Below the pieces are notes generated by a model. It was not told the DNA's origin. It did not search any database and saw nothing but the letters and a program-made list of their open reading frames with translations. A program made the position numbers and the translations under genes. Positions 11,292 through 20,660 of a stretch of 64,000 nucleotides of DNA are shown here, piece by piece (positions within the stretch are counted from its first letter, which is position 1; each line of letters opens with the position of its first letter). Source of the DNA: Corynebacterium phoceense (GTDB lineage: Bacteria; Actinomycetota; Actinomycetes; Mycobacteriales; Mycobacteriaceae); contig NZ_LT596208.1 of assembly GCF_900092335.1 (NCBI RefSeq), positions 1,150,722-1,214,721 on the forward strand. The letters are read 5' to 3'.

Positions 11292-11431
11292 GCCTCTACG
11301 CTATCCGGTTCGACGAGTTAAGTAGTCATGCCTGAGTACGATTTCGTCGGCCCTTTTTATCCAAGGCCGGGCCTAAATAGACCTCCTTCGCCAATCAACT
11401 GATCTGCCGCAGAGACGTCTTCCGATGATGC

Positions 11432-11571
11432 GTGCGCTACAACACGTGCCGACGGCACACTTGGTGCGGGTACCAAACTCCCGATGAGTTCGTCCCAAGC
11501 CGCTTAAGGTCTGATAAGCTTAACCTACATTTTGTTCACCCCACGGTGTCTACTTTCCAGGGGTCGGGCCC
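11432..11571 (+). mobile_element. 3' remnant of a decayed IS3-family element
   Basis: The reading RYNTCRRHTWCGYQTPDEF matches the extreme C-terminus of IS3-type DDE transposases (usual form WYN..R.HS.LGY.TP.E). It is preceded in frame by a stop at 11426, so only a tail survives. About 60 bases downstream, 11545-11571 (GGTGTCTACTTTCCAGGGGT...) resembles the right terminus of the truncated element at 14178-14203 (GGTGTCTACCTAACGGGGGT...). Tail plus terminus in the correct order indicate the right end of a related element whose remainder is lost. Confidence 0.6.
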
Positions 11572-11620
11572 TCCACAGCGACCCAAGAACCGGCCTATCG
11601 TTACTCACGCACAAAGAGGC

Positions 11621-12001
11621 GTGGAAATTACGTGTGTCGCCGGGACTGCGGCCACTGGCAATAAGGATGCCCAACCTGACGTTAAGCACCGGCGTGGCCC
11701 TGAAACGGCCAAAGCAACTGCCAATCAACTAGTTCTGTTTTCAGAAATTGATCTGCGGCCAACCCCTAGTAAGTCGGTTGAGATCAGTAAGCTCCGCGGG
11801 ACGTGGTTTTACCTGTACCACGTTCACCATGATGGCCATGTTTCTCACGAACTGTCCTACCCCTCTGCCTTGGAAGAAGGCCGTGTCACCGCGTGGGAAT
11901 TGCGCATCCTCCTGCCAGACCTGGAGCCGTCCGATGTTACGATGAAGGTTATTCCGACCGACGACGATGATTCCATTGTCTTCAACATTCAGGCCATGTA
12001 A
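11621..12001 (+). CDS. hypothetical protein upstream of disrupted XRE/ImmA gene
   Basis: The convincing part is residues about 40-126: LVLFSEIDLRP, GTWFYLYHVHHDGHVSHELS, then an acidic C-terminus. I do not recognise a named family. The start is uncertain: GTG at 11621 is the first plausible in-frame start after the IS terminus at 11571 but has a poorly spaced AAAGAGGC, and the N-terminus may have been lost to the IS element. The next gene begins 47 bases downstream on the same strand, so this is probably a partner of the ImmA-type protein. Real coding is likely; function unknown. Confidence 0.5.
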   Translation: MEITCVAGTAATGNKDAQPDVKHRRGPETAKATANQLVLFSEIDLRPTPSKSVEISKLRGTWFYLYHVHHDGHVSHELSYPSALEEGRVTAWELRILLPDLEPSDVTMKVIPTDDDDSIVFNIQAM

Positions 12002-12048
12002 CCTGGCGTTTTCCCTGCCGCCTGACACTTCACGAGAAAGTCCAAACC

Positions 12049-12164
12049 ATGCTCTCCTTCACGCGACTCGATACCGCGCGCACCTTTCGCGGTCTCAGCA
12101 CTGAGGAAGCATGCACTCGCTTGGGGCTAGACATCAGGCAATGGCAGTCGTTCGAAGCAGACGG
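12049..12164 (+). pseudogene. 5' fragment of XRE-HTH/ImmA-IrrE metallopeptidase gene
   Basis: About 39 codons, reading MLSFTRLDTARTFRGLSTEE then CTRLGLDIRQWQSFEADGE. This is the N-terminal helix-turn-helix typical of XRE proteins fused to an ImmA/IrrE peptidase. The frame runs into the left inverted repeat of an IS3-family element at 12165. The matching C-terminal half resumes at 14204 on the same strand. Roughly 150 residues of linker expected between the halves are absent, so the gene is not simply interrupted but also deleted. Confidence 0.7.
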
Positions 12165-12186
12165 TGAAGTGCCCCGGGTTTTGTTC

Positions 12187-13107
12187 CTAGGCATTTGCCT
12201 TGATTTCCATTATTTCTCGACTGGGGTCGTGTTCCCAAAATTCGGCTTCGACTTCAGCTGGGGTGCGGTAGCCCAGGCTCTGGTGGAGCCGTGATTCGTT
12301 CCACCAGTTAACCCGCTCGAACGTCGCGATTTCCACGTCGACGACATCGGCCCATGAGCGCCTATGAATCAGCTCATTCTTGTAGGAGCCGTTGACATTC
12401 TCAGCCAAAGCATTGTCATAGGAATCACCAACAGTGCCGGTAGACGCCGTAATTCCGTGCTCAGCCAGGCGCTCGTTGTAGACGATACTCACATATTGTG
12501 AGCCGTGGTCTGAATGGTGAATTAGGCCCGCCGTTTCCTTGGCGCACACGATCGCCTGGTTCAACGCCTGCAGCGGCAACGCCTCAGTACGCATCGAATC
12601 AGACAACGCCCACCCGACAATCCTCCGGGAGTACACATCAGTGACAAAAGCTGTGTACACAAACCCTTTCCTGGTGCGCACATACGTAATGTCCGCTACC
12701 CACAGCCGATGAGGGCCAGGAGCCTTAAACTCACGATTAACCAAATCTGGGCGAAGATCCGGGCCTGTGGGTTTGCGCGTTGTGACAGGTGCCCCACCTT
12801 TTCCCTTGCCGGACAGTCCAGCGCTGCGCATCAGCCGGGCTGTCTGCTCGCGGCCAATGTCAACGCCCCGGCGTTGCAGCACGCGCCACATCTTCCGCAC
12901 CCCGTAGACGCCGTAATTTTCAGCATGAACGTCGCGAATATGCTCTACAAGGGCAGCGTCGCGAAGAGCGCGGGAGCTTAAGCCCCGGGCCTTGGATTGG
13001 CGGTACCCACGCGAGCTAAGAAAACCGCCTTCGCGATGCGTGTTTAACGTCTGGCAAATGAACTCGACGCAGAAACGATTCCGGTACTCATCAATGAACC
13101 GGATCAT
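12187..13107 (-). CDS. IS3-family transposase OrfB (DDE integrase)
   Basis: The 306-residue catalytic subunit starts MIRFIDEYRNRFCVEFICQ and has the HTH_21-like segment, then an rve domain: LWVADITYVRT (first Asp), LIHHSDHGSQYVS (second Asp region), and the Glu in GDSYDNALAENVNGSYKNE. The end matches RLHQSLGYRTPAEVE. It is intact, and its stop codon overlaps the inner end of the left inverted repeat. Confidence 0.92.
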   Translation of the reverse strand: MIRFIDEYRNRFCVEFICQTLNTHREGGFLSSRGYRQSKARGLSSRALRDAALVEHIRDVHAENYGVYGVRKMWRVLQRRGVDIGREQTARLMRSAGLSGKGKGGAPVTTRKPTGPDLRPDLVNREFKAPGPHRLWVADITYVRTRKGFVYTAFVTDVYSRRIVGWALSDSMRTEALPLQALNQAIVCAKETAGLIHHSDHGSQYVSIVYNERLAEHGITASTGTVGDSYDNALAENVNGSYKNELIHRRSWADVVDVEIATFERVNWWNESRLHQSLGYRTPAEVEAEFWEHDPSREIMEIKANA

Positions 13108-13420
13108 TTCCGACGTTTCGGGTCGAGTTCCGACGCGAAAAAGCCGAAGCGGCTTTCAACAACTCATTGGTGTCCCGCAACTCTTGATTCTCGCGACGCA
13201 ACCGTGCGTTTTCTGCAGCAAGGTCCTCGGGCATTGATTCCACAACACGTCCTTCGCGACGAGCGGCCTGCGTCCATTGCCTCGCCGTGTGCCACGACAC
13301 ACCCAGCTTTGGTGCCACGATCTTGCAGGCTGCCTGCATAGAAATGTTCTCCGCCAGGATGCGGTCTTCCACGAGGCGGACCACACAGTCTTTCGCATCC
13401 TGATCAAATTTTCTCGGCAT
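13091..13420 (-). CDS. IS3-family transposase OrfA
   Basis: A helix-turn-helix plus leucine-zipper protein of 109 codons: MPRKFDQDAKDCVVRLVEDR, LGVSWHTARQW, then the coiled segment ENARLRRENQELRDTNELLK. After ASAF the frame reads SRRNST instead of the usual FFASELDPKRRK, because the T-run here has five T instead of the six seen at the same place in the other copy (20657-20978). This changes the C-terminus and the relation to the orfB frame. Confidence 0.82.
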   Translation of the reverse strand: MPRKFDQDAKDCVVRLVEDRILAENISMQAACKIVAPKLGVSWHTARQWTQAARREGRVVESMPEDLAAENARLRRENQELRDTNELLKAASAFSRRNSTRNVGNDPVH

Positions 13421-13470
13421 GTTCCAAATTTTCCTATCTACTCAAACGGAACAAAACCTGGGGCACTTCA

Positions 13471-13832
13471 TTTGTCACGCGCAGTGGTCTTGACCCTGCG
13501 CTTCTTTTTTGAAATCCGAACAGGTTCTGGGCCCGCATCAAACTAGCCACTCTCTTGCGATTGATGCGCTTAGCCGGAGGTGTAGTGCCGTTGTCGCGCT
13601 TGCGGTCGTTGAGTTCAGCAGTGATGCGACGAGCGCCCCAGATGCCGTTTTCAGCGTCGAAAATGGCCTGGATCTCCGCGGCCACCACAGCGTCATCTAC
13701 AAGGCGCGCACGGCGCCGTGGAGCCGAGTTCTTCCACTTGTAATACGAAGACCGATTTAGCCCCAGGACTGTGCACATCCGCTTGACCGAGTAGTCGGCG
13801 AGATTGTCGTCAACGAACTGGAAGCGGATCAC
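13471..13832 (-). pseudogene. truncated IS3-family OrfB
   Basis: Starts with GTG overlapping the orfA stop (GTGA). It encodes FVDDNLADYSVKRMCTVLGL, SSYYKWKNSAPRRRARL and the start of the linker (NGIWGARRITAELN, VASLMRAQNLFGF). The sequence is cut by the neighbouring IS right end before the DDE catalytic domain, so it cannot encode an active transposase. Confidence 0.85.
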
Positions 13833-14131
13833 CAGGTCGTCTCTTCCGCAAAATACTTCGCGGCCTTACGCAGAATATCGCGCTCTTCACGAAGCCTTTT
13901 GTTTTCGCGTTCTAGCTGGCGGATTCTTTCCGCATCAGCAAGCTTTTCTACGGGTGACGCTGCATCTTCATCCTTGGCGACGTTAGTGCCGAATTGCTTG
14001 TACCAGTATCCCAAAGTCGAGCGATTGATTCCGAGTTCTTCTGCGACCTTGCGCATTGAGGTATCCGGGTTCGACTCGAACATCGCGACGGCGTCGCGTT
14101 TGAACTGTTCCGTGTAAACCTTGCGGGGCAT
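13829..14131 (-). CDS. IS3-family transposase OrfA
   Basis: A 100-residue protein: MPRKVYTEQFKRDAVAMFES, LGINRSTLGYWYKQFG (helix-turn-helix) and a C-terminal heptad region ERIRQLERENKRLREERDIL followed by RKAAKYFAEET, the standard OrfA layout. It appears complete, but its partner OrfB is truncated, so the element is immobile on its own. Confidence 0.9.
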   Translation of the reverse strand: MPRKVYTEQFKRDAVAMFESNPDTSMRKVAEELGINRSTLGYWYKQFGTNVAKDEDAASPVEKLADAERIRQLERENKRLREERDILRKAAKYFAEETTW

Positions 14132-14203
14132 GGTGGTAGATTACCTTCCTTCCCAACCACACTGGCTGGAATCAGAGGTGTCTACCTAACGGGGGTCAGG
14201 TCC

Positions 14204-14731
14204 CCTGTCGATGCCTTTTCATTGTGGGATGACGGTCGCCCCTACATCTTTACTGCGCGTCGCCGTAGCCCCGAAGGCGAAAGGTTCACGCTGGCTCACG
14301 AGCTCGGCCGCCTCGTTATGCACCCCAACGATCCCACGACGCCTGAGGCTGAATCCGAGGCCGATGCCTTTGCCGCAGAATTCCTCATTCCGCACACGGC
14401 GTGCTTCGAATATCTTCCCTACAACCCATCGTTGGAGAGGCTGCTCGAGTTCAAAACCGCCTTTCGCGTCTCAGCCATCGCAGCCGCACGGCGCGTGCAC
14501 GAAGTCGGTCGTTGCTCAGACTGGCACTACACGGAGCTCAATCGCATTCTCACGCTGCGCGGATTCCGCTCCGCTGAACCTGGCGGTCGTACCTTTTACG
14601 AACGCTCGCGCGTCTTTGACACGATCGCAGGCAACGATAAGTATTCGCTTCACGATATGGCGACTGAGCTTGGCCTTCCCACCGAATTGGCCCGCAGTTT
14701 CGCGCTCCAAATACGCCTTTCGGTGGTCTAG
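14204..14731 (+). pseudogene. 3' fragment of XRE/ImmA-IrrE metallopeptidase gene
   Basis: Immediately after the IS terminus the frame reads PVDAFSLWDDGRPYIFTARR, then ERFTLAHELGRLVMHPND, then SEADAFAAEFLIP. These are the ImmA/IrrE landmarks, including the downstream zinc-binding Glu region. The usual HELGH is HELGR here (CGC at 14308-14310), so the second zinc-ligand histidine is lost. The C-terminal 100 residues (FRVSAIAAARRVHE, YSLHDMATELGLPTELARSF) follow the family pattern. With no start codon of its own and the HTH half 2 kb away, this is a broken gene. Confidence 0.75.
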
Positions 14732-14754
14732 TCTCGCACCTCGTCGCGTCACAG

Positions 14755-14760
14755 TACAGT
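14755..14760 (+). promoter_or_regulatory. -10 box (TACAGT) for the 519-residue gene
   Basis: TACAGT lies seven bases before the ATG at 14768 with no Shine-Dalgarno between, consistent with leaderless transcription independent of the broken ImmA gene. Confidence 0.4.
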
Positions 14761-14767
14761 ATCCAGC

Positions 14768-16327
14768 ATGACCACACCACCGCCTGCACCGGATGTACGC
14801 CAGTTCCTCAACGACGAATCCCCCGTCGACCTCATCGAGTTTCTCAATGGACTCTTCTACGTCGAGCGCGTCGCTCGCGAGGAGGGCATAGATGAAGGCA
14901 CGCCCGTCGGCACGACATACTTCGAGGAGCTCTGGGGCGAGGATTCTCCGGAGTCCACCATGGCGCTGGCCGTGGCGGCAGTTCTAGATCCCAACGACGA
15001 GCGTAAGTCGCGAACGCAGGAAATACTCGCCTCCCGCGAGCACGAACTTCCGGCGTGGGCCGAAGGCCTCACCCAGGCGAGCATCGGCGAAGTCATCGAG
15101 TCCACGCAGTACGCCGGCGACATCGTCTACTACGCACTCGAGCTCGCCATCCCTGGCTCGGAGCCGGTGGCCGTGAACGTCTCGATCGACCTCACGGAGA
15201 CCAACGGCGCCATCTACGACTGTTTCGCGACGGCACTCCCGCTCGACGCCGTCCGCGACGTCATGCGCCGCAATGAGGATCAGGAACGCACCATGACGGT
15301 CCCAGTAGCGGGTCTGAAGAAGGTGCTCAGCAACGCACTCTACCTCGACGAAATCACCATCCCCTCCCATGAGAACGAGTCGTGGCCGCTCAACCGCCCG
15401 CTGCTCACCTGGGTCATCTCGCTACTGCCCGACAATGAAGCACCAGCGAACGGGCAGACTTTCGCCGCAGCCCGCGCCCGTCAAGAAAACGATGACTTCA
15501 GCGACCGTGACAAGGTCCTCAAGGAGTTCCTCAAGGCCGAAAAGCTCACCGGCGATGATCGCGATGCCGCCGAGCAACTCTTCGAGATCGCCTCCAACTA
15601 CACCATGGCCGACCTGCTTCATTGGTCCCCGCTGCGCATCGAGATCGTCCTCGACACCATCGCCCGCAAGGTGATCGCTGCGCAGGACTACCTGGAGGCC
15701 TTCCCACTCGTTCTGGAACGCCTCCTTGTGTGGTCGAAGAAGCAGATCAAGCGCCCCGCCGATCTCCACACGCGCCTCATGGAGGAGCTCGAGGAGCAGC
15801 ACAAGAACTTCGCCAAAGAAGTCACGGAGGAACCGGAGTACGCCGAGGGGACGATAGGCGCTCTGCTGCAGAAGGGACGCCCACGCCTCGACGAGTCGCC
15901 GCTCCCTCTCGAGGCGCTCAACACCGAGGACCTCTCCCCGGAACTCGTCGACCGAGTCAAGGCGACCGGCAAACAGATTCTTCGATGGTTCCGCACCCAT
16001 CAGACCGCCGATGTGGAAATCCTTACGGCCACCCGTCGTCTTCTCCACGATGTCGCCGTCGTGCGTCCCGACCTCATCTCCGATCCCCGGTACACACCCG
16101 CCCAACTCGGTGCCCTCATCGTGCTCGTGACCTATGACAACTCGCTCGTGCTCATCGACGAGGATTCGGTCCTGCGCGGGTTTGATCTCGCAGAACCTAT
16201 CGACGAGGAGGTGGAGGACTTCTTCGAGGCTCTCGACGATATCGACGAGGAACTGGCTCGCCCCGCGGGTTATTTCCTCACCTCCGAGATGCGCAGGCGG
16301 TGGAACGTGGTCTATAAGACCACGTAA
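14768..16327 (+). CDS. hypothetical protein, 519 residues
   Basis: A long intact acidic protein with no membrane span, signal peptide or catalytic motif that I recognise. Segments include an N-terminal LIEFLNGLFYVERVAREEGI, a beta-rich part (IVYYALELAIPGSEPVAVNV), a helical middle (RDAAEQLFEIASNYTMADLL, LVLERLLVWSKKQIKRP) and an acidic C-terminal helix region (EEVEDFFEALDDIDEELARP). Codon use and GC match the chromosome. It lies 36 bases after the ImmA gene fragment on the same strand and may be the third gene of that locus, though it has its own -10 box. Function unknown. Confidence 0.75.
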   Translation: MTTPPPAPDVRQFLNDESPVDLIEFLNGLFYVERVAREEGIDEGTPVGTTYFEELWGEDSPESTMALAVAAVLDPNDERKSRTQEILASREHELPAWAEGLTQASIGEVIESTQYAGDIVYYALELAIPGSEPVAVNVSIDLTETNGAIYDCFATALPLDAVRDVMRRNEDQERTMTVPVAGLKKVLSNALYLDEITIPSHENESWPLNRPLLTWVISLLPDNEAPANGQTFAAARARQENDDFSDRDKVLKEFLKAEKLTGDDRDAAEQLFEIASNYTMADLLHWSPLRIEIVLDTIARKVIAAQDYLEAFPLVLERLLVWSKKQIKRPADLHTRLMEELEEQHKNFAKEVTEEPEYAEGTIGALLQKGRPRLDESPLPLEALNTEDLSPELVDRVKATGKQILRWFRTHQTADVEILTATRRLLHDVAVVRPDLISDPRYTPAQLGALIVLVTYDNSLVLIDEDSVLRGFDLAEPIDEEVEDFFEALDDIDEELARPAGYFLTSEMRRRWNVVYKTT

Positions 16328-16407: not shown

Positions 16408-16577
16408 CGTGCCACCTGGCGCACCTGCTACCCCGCCCTCTTTGCGGTCGGCCTCGGCTGCGCGTGCGCTGTCCTCGTGACGCTGTCTATTCCGGTGGGA
16501 CTCCTCCTTGATTTCAGCGAAGCGGGGTGCATCTGGCTCCACGCCGCCTTCGTGTCTAGCGCGTCCTCCAGGTCGGC
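16408..16577 (+). pseudogene. possible sensor-kinase N-terminal remnant
   Basis: One frame reads TWRTCYPALFAVGLGCACAV then LVTLSIPVGLLLDF, a convincing membrane segment with no usable start codon and a stop at 16585. It sits directly before a response regulator missing its first part, and the first span of a histidine kinase is the simplest reading. The identity is an inference from position and hydrophobicity only. Confidence 0.35.
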
Positions 16578-17036
16578 GTGCCCATAATCGTGCTCACCGC
16601 CCGCACCAATATCGAAGCCCGCGTCAAGGCCTTGGAGGGCGGCGCGGACGACTACGTGCCCAAGCCTTTCCAGTTCGCCGAGCTCTTAGCCCGCGTGCGC
16701 CTGCGGCTTGCCCCACGCGCCCCGGCGGCTGAGACGAGTTCAGCTCCCGAAACTTTCACCATCACGCACGAGGACGTGAGCCTCGACCTGCGCACCCAAC
16801 GCGTGGAGGTCGCCGGCACGTCCAAAGACCTCTCCCGCCGCGAGTTCGGCCTGCTCGAGACCTTCCTGCGCCACCCCGGCCAGATTCTCTCGCGCGCGCA
16901 GCTGCTCTCCATGGTCTGGGAGATGGACTTCGATCCTGGTTCCAACGTCGTGGACGTCTATATCCGGACGCTGCGCAAGAAAATCGGCCCCGAGCGCATC
17001 GAGACCGTCCGCGGCTCCGGCTACCGCCTCGTCTAG
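16578..17036 (+). pseudogene. 5'-truncated OmpR/PhoB-family response regulator
   Basis: The sequence opens in the middle of a receiver domain (VPIIVLTARTNIEARVKALE, GGADDYVPKPF with the conserved Thr and Lys) and continues into an intact winged-helix output domain (VSLDLRTQRVEVAG, LSRREFGLLETFLRHPGQI, VVDVYIRTLRKKIG, ETVRGSGYRLV). About 70 N-terminal residues, including the phosphorylated Asp, are missing, and an in-frame stop lies nine codons upstream. No kinase gene follows. Confidence 0.88.
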
Positions 17037-19750: not shown

Positions 19751-20660
19751 TTACGGCCCTGTGTTGATGGGCTGGGTGAGATAGTACTCGGTTTCTACTT
19801 CCTGTGGGGTAGCGTAGTCCAAAGCTTCATGAAGCCGCTTGGTGTTCCACCAATGCACCCACCGCAAGGTGGCCAATTCGACTTCTCCGACCGACGTCCA
19901 CGGGCCCCGGGCATGAATCAGTTCAGCCTTGTAGAGACCATTGACTGTTTCGGCTAGAGCATTGTCATAAGAATCGCCGACTGTTCCCACACTCGGACGG
20001 ATTCCGGATTCCGCTAGCGCAGTGGAATACTTCAGTGACACATACTGGCTGCCCCGATCACTATGGTGAATTAACTGGTTTCCATGGATTCGTCCTGCAG
20101 TCGTTAACGCATGCTCCAAAGCCTCCATGGGCAGCGCATCGGTACGCATCGTCGAGCGTGTAGCAACACCAACAATTTTTCGGCTGAATACATCCACGAC
20201 AAACGCGGTATAGGCGAATCCTGACAGGGTGCGAACGTAAGTAATGTCGGCAACCCACAACCTGCCTGGTGCCTGCGCACGGAAGTTTCGGCACACAAGG
20301 TCCGGGCGATGATCCGGTGTCTTCGGGCTAATCGTTGTCACAGGGGTTCGCCCACGTCGGCGGCCGGAAACACCTGCTAGCTTCATCAGTCGTGCAGTCT
20401 TATCGCGGCCGATATGAAAGCCTTCACGGTTCATCGCGTGCCACATTTTGCGGATGCCGTAGACCGAGAAATTCTCCGCATGCACACGCTGTATCTCTGG
20501 GATAAGCAGGCTATCGCTTAAGGTCCTTGCGCTGGGAACACGAGTGGTCGCCTTGCGGTAGCCACGAGAGGTGATGAATCCACGATCTGCCTGTTTTAGA
20601 ACTCTGCAGATGGGCCCGGGCCCCAAACTGATCTTTGTACGCGTCGATGTAGGAGATCAT
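19751..20660 (-). pseudogene. frameshifted IS3-family transposase OrfB
   Basis: The natural start is ATG at 20660, overlapping the orfA stop, reading MISYIDAYKDQFGA. At GGGGCCCGGGCCC an extra C shifts the frame; beyond it the catalytic protein is intact (GPICRVLKQADRGF, LWVADITYVRT, LIHHSDRGSQYVS, GDSYDNALAETVNGLYKAE, RLHEALDYATPQEVE). Removing one C restores a continuous protein of about 300 residues. Confidence 0.85.

Follow-up and report, generated by a model that had tools for sequence, protein, structure and literature searches.

Layout of the locus

Within a 64,000-nucleotide stretch of contig NZ_LT596208.1 (hereafter, the window), a group of three plus-strand genes was analysed, namely a small gene, a gene for a protein with an XRE-type helix-turn-helix (HTH) and an ImmA/IrrE metallopeptidase domain, and a gene for a 519-residue protein (P519). 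The genus is taken to be Corynebacterium, and gene names such as sigA, dtxR, metE, dhaK and pxpA are presumed names, read by eye. The original prediction had joined the three genes into one accessory module with insertion sequences (IS) among them, and all the pieces of this layout were found in the open reading frames (ORFs) and by Pfam searches: on the plus strand, an ORF starting with GTG (11432-12001), an HTH-like start (12049), a Peptidase_M78 domain within 14222-14731 and the ORF of P519 (14768-16327), the plus-strand gene pieces being separated by minus-strand IS3-type transposase frames located between 12187 and 14131. Its placement among accessory or defence loci also held, as the locus was recognized by PADLOC as RosmerTA, a system reportedly first reported by Millman et al. 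in 2022. However, the small gene and the XRE-ImmA gene had been taken as whole, and both were found to be degenerate (the former cut at its 5′ end, the latter deprived of about 120 residues and with a changed catalytic motif, HELGR), P519 being the sole intact member of the three. Overall, the first two genes (rmrT and rmrA) are very probably pseudogenes left over from a toxin-antitoxin locus of the phage-defence type RosmerTA, and the third gene an unrelated neighbour. The features of the locus were the following:

11387-11573, plus strand: IS end with the last transposase codons, abutting the cut rmrT (genome self-matches)
11579-12001, plus strand: rmrT remnant, C-terminal ~140 residues (PADLOC RmrT profile PDLC03935; homologues in genus and class)
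12049-12164, plus strand: rmrA remnant part 1, HTH start, 38 codons (blastp to RmrA homologues)
12165-13470, minus strand: IS-A, full-length IS3-type element (inverted repeats; rve, HTH_21 and HTH_Tnp_1; second genome copy)
13471-14205, minus strand: IS-B, cut IS3-type element (Pfam; relatives elsewhere in the genome)
14206-14731, plus strand: rmrA remnant part 2, ImmA/IrrE (M78) peptidase half with HELGR (Pfam, PADLOC and motif comparison)
14768-16327, plus strand: P519, intact 519-residue protein of a wide actinobacterial family (homologues; predicted model)
16560-17036, plus strand: OmpR-type response regulator, N-terminal 67 residues missing (tblastn with three intact homologues)

Remnants of the toxin gene rmrT

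The small protein was identified as RmrT, the toxin of RosmerTA, by the PADLOC profile PDLC03935 (E-values of 3e-25 for 11579-11998 and 2e-21 for 11624-11998), with the remnant covering profile positions 75-204 of 207. Homologues were considered in two samples, comprising 242 genomes of the genus and 296 genomes of the class, with the genome of the window counted in each. In the class-wide profile search, the homology to RmrT began at position 11579, corresponding to model position 81 of 221, and the frame ahead of this position in the ORF 11432-12001 was the end of an IS and not rmrT. The start of the homology at 11579 and the IS end located just before it thus indicate that rmrT was cut at its 5′ end. 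In particular, the RmrT homologues in the genus had 213-229 residues (n=11, one of them trimmed to an inner start), and the window copy retains the last ~140 residues of a protein of ~220, with ~80 N-terminal residues gone. The protein of 126 residues (11621-12001) that had been proposed as complete is a part of this remnant. Moreover, seven columns that were invariant across all 16 rows of the RmrT alignment, the remnant included, are kept in it (P, G, W, E, S, W and R). No Pfam match was found for the small protein, nor for the three members of subfamily PDLC03935 that were scanned, and NCBIfam gave nothing for RmrT, while a single weak match of unknown function was obtained in PHROGs for one RmrT (E=0.0025). 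Furthermore, the genome had no second match to the small protein or to the peptidase half of rmrA at E≤0.001.

The predicted model of RmrT had no Foldseek match at E≤0.001. In a further structure comparison, the first three rows were restriction enzymes, with NaeI reaching a Z-score of 6.6 and a root-mean-square deviation (rmsd) of 3.7 over 138 aligned residues, which is within the chance range, and human Rep15 (Z-score of 4.7) and many EcoRV chains appeared in later rows. The check for a PD-(D/E)XK motif found no D...ExK among the invariant alignment columns, and profile searches of PDB sequences returned nothing meaningful. With this motif missing from the invariant columns and the Z-score being middling, RmrT is not claimed to be a nuclease.

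Remnants of the antitoxin gene rmrA

The peptidase half of the second gene matched RmrA over positions 170-336 of 363 in the PADLOC profile PDLC03949 (E=1.9e-43), as well as the Pfam family PF06114 (Peptidase_M78) with E=2.5e-16. The HTH half, comprising the 38 codons up to the IS, gave a weak blastp match to RmrA homologues, with the best E-value being 4e-5 for a query extended 25 nt into the IS. When both halves were compared with a homologue of 377 residues (locus L074), the HTH half reached to about residue 59 and the peptidase half began again at about residue 183, so roughly 120 residues of rmrA are missing, and tblastn with 13 homologues revealed no convincing trace of this middle part in the window. 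A simple interruption of an otherwise whole rmrA by IS was ruled out by this missing middle. Moreover, the zinc motif HExxH reads HELGR in the window, with the second histidine replaced by arginine, as opposed to the 23 homologue loci (L068-L090), all of which retained HE[LI]GH.

The peptidase half also matched capP (E=2.3e-15), as could be expected of a CapH/CapP-like regulator of a cyclic oligonucleotide-based antiphage signalling system (CBASS) or similar, where an ImmA-like peptidase cleaves a repressor upon DNA sensing. CapH-CapP has a two-protein layout, with an HTH repressor and an ImmA-like metallopeptidase. However, HTH and peptidase are fused in one protein in the homologous RmrA, the partner being RmrT, and no CBASS gene was recognized near the pairs among the chosen neighbours that were scanned. 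Furthermore, the E-value given above for RmrA is far better, and a CapP-type regulator was rejected on these PADLOC scores, a regulator of this kind being very improbable here.

Regarding RosmerTA membership, an antitoxin with HTH and M78 domains matching RmrA is present by descent, in pieces, and so is an adjacent RmrT gene (11579-12001), although neither the intact genes nor the HExxH motif are preserved, with ~80 residues of rmrT and ~120 of rmrA gone and HELGR in place of the motif. Both genes are broken, being RmrT and RmrA by descent, and the RosmerTA locus of the window is a relic of a known system whose pair cannot work as such.

Recurrence of the RmrT-RmrA pair

A total of 12 out of the 242 genus genomes had RmrT, including that of the window, and an XRE-ImmA gene in a single frame appeared directly downstream in all 11 of the others. 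The rmrT and rmrA frames overlapped in these 11 loci when counted from the first start codons, the true starts of which may differ. In the class, RmrT was found in 9 of the 296 genomes (the window's included), with RmrA adjoining it in seven of the other eight. Moreover, six of the 11 genus pairs adjoined other defence genes, the neighbours having been scanned with profiles in part only. These were a TOTE primase-helicase (L071), a type I restriction-modification (R-M) system together with a type IV enzyme (L072), a type IV enzyme with DUF3427 (L074), Vsr with a C5-methylase and MzaB (L075), a GmrSD_N protein (L076) and a reverse transcriptase of the defence-associated type DRT UG5-nitrilase on one side of the pair (L081, E=1e-229). 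In the genus, this RmrT subfamily is thus often accompanied by other defence systems, an arrangement that, judging from the gene neighbourhoods, would fit a mobile defence module. On the other side of the pair in L081 (9505-17003 for the whole group), a second ImmA-type protein was found (capP with E=1e-11, RmrA with E=7e-10), with a PIN-like partner seen by eye.

The peptidase half was matched in 58 of the 242 genus genomes (E≤0.001), many of these matches being distant. Among the RmrA genes without RmrT, those of L083, L084 and L085 lie beside a metE-like gene, and those of L068, L086 and L089 beside a pair formed by an AAA ATPase and an RloB-like gene on the opposite strand (both by eye). 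Other split copies of RmrA were also observed, in L068 (5280-9195) around IS-like genes, and in L088 (3845-5031) and L090 (6066-6774) over two frames, the decay of rmrA thus recurring in the genus.

Several observations weigh against reading the first two genes as the remains of a RosmerTA pair. To begin with, the HTH fragment is weakly identified, as the Pfam matches to HTH_31 and HTH_25 (E=0.02-0.03) were below the cut-off, and the fragment alone had no PADLOC match at E≤0.01. The class homologue in L094 lacks RmrA in its ~1.5-kb flanks, the match itself holding one stop, and no defence gene was recognized at five of the 11 genus pairs, within the partial profile scan of their neighbours. 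Furthermore, when the closest RmrA matches in the genus were considered (E≤6e-30; 20 genomes besides that of the window), this RmrT was recognized in 11 genomes and not in the other nine. Finally, the cut rmrT frame retains conserved C-terminal residues, so a short protein might still be produced from it.

The seven invariant columns kept in the RmrT remnant, together with the nine genomes having RmrA without this RmrT, would also suit a scenario in which the cut RmrT or the peptidase fragment was retained to serve another function, such as that of a solitary antitoxin or a decoy. However, the loss of the zinc ligand, the missing middle and the recent IS insertion described below point to decay, a few conserved residues are to be expected if such decay is young, and some solitary RmrA copies are split as well (L068, L088 and L090). 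Such a new role is considered quite improbable, and decay of a RosmerTA pair is the preferred interpretation.

Insertion sequences and proposed order of events

The IS end to the left of rmrT (11387-11570) was 85% identical to C2:1517774-1517959 and 71-72% identical to four further genome positions, with the matches stopping at 11570-11573 even when a longer query was used. The peptide of 49 residues encoded at 11432-11578 had no Pfam match at E≤0.01. IS-A carries its transposase frames at 13091-13420 and 12187-13107, and its terminal inverted repeats of 23 nt were 96% complementary, while no target duplication was seen by eye. A second full-length copy of IS-A was found in the genome (identity of 100% as rounded), and its insertion therefore looks recent, the two copies being practically identical. 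On the other hand, IS-B consists of a first transposase frame and a cut second frame without the rve core (Pfam), with relatives elsewhere in the genome showing 71% identity, whose matches stop at 14203-14206 with a longer query. IS-B and the left IS end matched opposite ends of the same genome elements, and thus belong to one IS family. A further IS3-type transposase gene was seen by eye at 19751-20626 of the window, its DNA being ~63% identical to that of IS-A.

From the junctions, we infer the following order of events. An IS end would have replaced the 5′ part of rmrT, and IS-B, of the same family, would have come to sit in rmrA. IS-A would have been inserted afterwards, and its arrival probably cost rmrA its middle and IS-B its left part. 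In addition, a zinc ligand of the peptidase is lost. The locus is of interest as a defence system caught decaying, in which the damage has reached the toxin, the antitoxin and the catalytic motif, and one IS looks recently inserted.

The response regulator on the right-hand side (16560-17036) is also cut, as its homology begins at residue 68 of three intact homologues of 218-221 residues used as tblastn queries. In its relatives, the gene is whole and lies behind a kinase-like frame (by eye). Together with the IS end at rmrT, this indicates that the region bears scars at its two borders; the left scar adjoins an IS end, while no IS is visible at the right-hand one.

P519 and its family

A gap of 36 nt separates the stop of rmrA (14731) from the start of P519 (14768) on the same strand, and P519 is intact, as would suit a working three-gene system with P519 as the effector and the XRE-ImmA protein as the regulator. 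Moreover, two related genomes carry a type ISP restriction enzyme 73 nt downstream of a P519 homologue, showing that defence loci can host members of the family. However, RmrA (E≤0.01) was found near P519 homologues in 0 out of 37 loci. These represent 35 distinct places, taken from all five remaining genus genomes, 29 of the 52 class genomes with a match besides that of the window, and one further genome of the family, with flanks of several kb in eight entries and of about 1.5 kb or less in 29. Furthermore, both RmrT and RmrA are broken, and the 11 genus pairs vary in what lies downstream of RmrA, so that a working three-gene system is regarded as extremely improbable. The families were also distributed differently, with P519 appearing in 6 genus genomes vs. 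12 for RmrT, and in 53 class genomes (from 33 of 115 genera) vs. 9, the genome of the window being included in each count. P519 was rejected as a third member of the module on account of these distributions and of the 37 loci.

Hence, of the original proposal that the three genes act together, the part concerning the small protein and the XRE-ImmA protein was upheld (11/11 in the genus, 7/8 in the class), and that concerning P519 was not. Homologues occurring mostly without the peptidase gene had been named beforehand as the outcome that would speak against the module, and this was the case of P519, though not of the small protein.

P519 is close in length to its nearest relatives (523 residues), with 37-39% identity in the genus, while a search of genome contigs for loci related to that of P519 gave no relative. 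Nothing was obtained for P519 in Pfam (E≤1), nor in NCBIfam or PHROGs (E≤0.1), and PADLOC gave a single weak match (CARF3, E=0.025). Nevertheless, Pfam DUF6398 (PF19935) was matched by 3 of the 11 rows of the P519 family alignment, while P519 itself did not reach E≤1 for it. Actinobacterial proteins containing DUF6398 align with P519 along most of its length, although these homologues (~600 residues) have a basic N-terminal extension that P519 lacks. A literature search gave no paper naming DUF6398.

The model of P519 had a mean predicted local distance difference test score of 83.9 and a predicted template modelling score of 0.65, with a C-terminal helical domain, and no Foldseek match at E≤0.001 was obtained, TFIIB and p107 topping the list at E=0.08-0.16. 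For residues ~385-505, the best Z-score was 11.4 (rmsd of 2.3 Å, 107 aligned residues), helical bundles being able to reach ~13 by arrangement alone. All 50 listed rows for this domain were, by title, cyclins, TFIIB/TFIIIB, Rb/p107, or RNA polymerase initiation complexes holding such factors. The predicted C-terminal domain may thus resemble the cyclin-box fold, a likeness kept as a lead only, in view of the Z-scores that helical bundles may attain. In a fuller version, P519 would belong to an uncharacterised actinobacterial family with a cyclin-box-like C-terminal domain (the DUF6398 region), which would have moved into defence loci in some genomes of the genus to act there as an adaptor or regulator; drawn from one predicted model and very few loci, this proposal is unlikely as a whole.

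The type ISP loci extended over L060 973-7633, L061 1-7790 and L063 575-6176. In a third genome, a P519 remnant of 65 residues was observed near the type ISP enzyme, with an AAA_13 ATPase nearby. The enzyme of L061 was 94% identical to that of L060 over the first 1240 residues and then diverged, as would be expected for a changed specificity part. Moreover, five tandem or near-tandem P519 paralogues appeared beside trp genes in L062 (6114-18399, genome G273), the first being shorter (339 residues). Many P519 homologue loci had neighbours without an evident defence role (by eye). Overall, a false three-gene module was removed, and P519, otherwise unannotated, gained a family assignment and a fold lead, this being the small open lead left by a locus that is mostly ordinary.

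Comparison with known systems

As published, RosmerTA comprises diverse RmrT toxins and the ImmA-domain antitoxin RmrA, with neutralisation of RmrT toxicity by RmrA having been described, and some systems defending against phages (PMC10440598). As described there, the toxin RmrT-D5 of Gordonia phage Kita depolarises membranes, and E. coli with the Kita pair was protected against two of the coliphages in a collection (PMC10440598). For Acinetobacter baumannii, a tendency of RosmerTA to occur alongside R-M systems has been reported, and some prophages carry it (PMC12421847). By analogy with the published systems, in an intact copy of the locus, RmrT would be the toxin, and RmrA, which joins an XRE HTH to an ImmA/IrrE metallopeptidase, would serve as antitoxin and probably as autoregulator. 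RmrA would cease restraining RmrT upon infection and growth would stop, so growth arrest upon release from RmrA is what would be expected of this RmrT subfamily.

Compared with RosmerTA, the PADLOC profiles fit both proteins, the genes are adjacent and toxin-first in the intact homologues, and the antitoxin has XRE-HTH and M78 domains, the difference being that neither gene is intact in the window copy. Moreover, the Kita toxin RmrT-D5 is membrane-depolarising, whereas the subfamily found in the window (PDLC03935) is the one without a Pfam match in three members. The spr1629 family repressor/antitoxin (NCBIfam NF052239) is also similar, as the RmrA homologue of L078 matched it over the peptidase part (E=7.8e-29), although its score of 100.9 bits falls short of the curated cut-off (335 bits), so that it is not a member by this model. 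Finally, ImmA cleaves ImmR in ICEBs1 (PMC10440598), and both ImmR-ImmA and the CapH-CapP of CBASS share with the window locus the logic of an HTH plus an ImmA-like metallopeptidase, which in these systems are two separate proteins with other partner genes, as opposed to the single fused RmrA.

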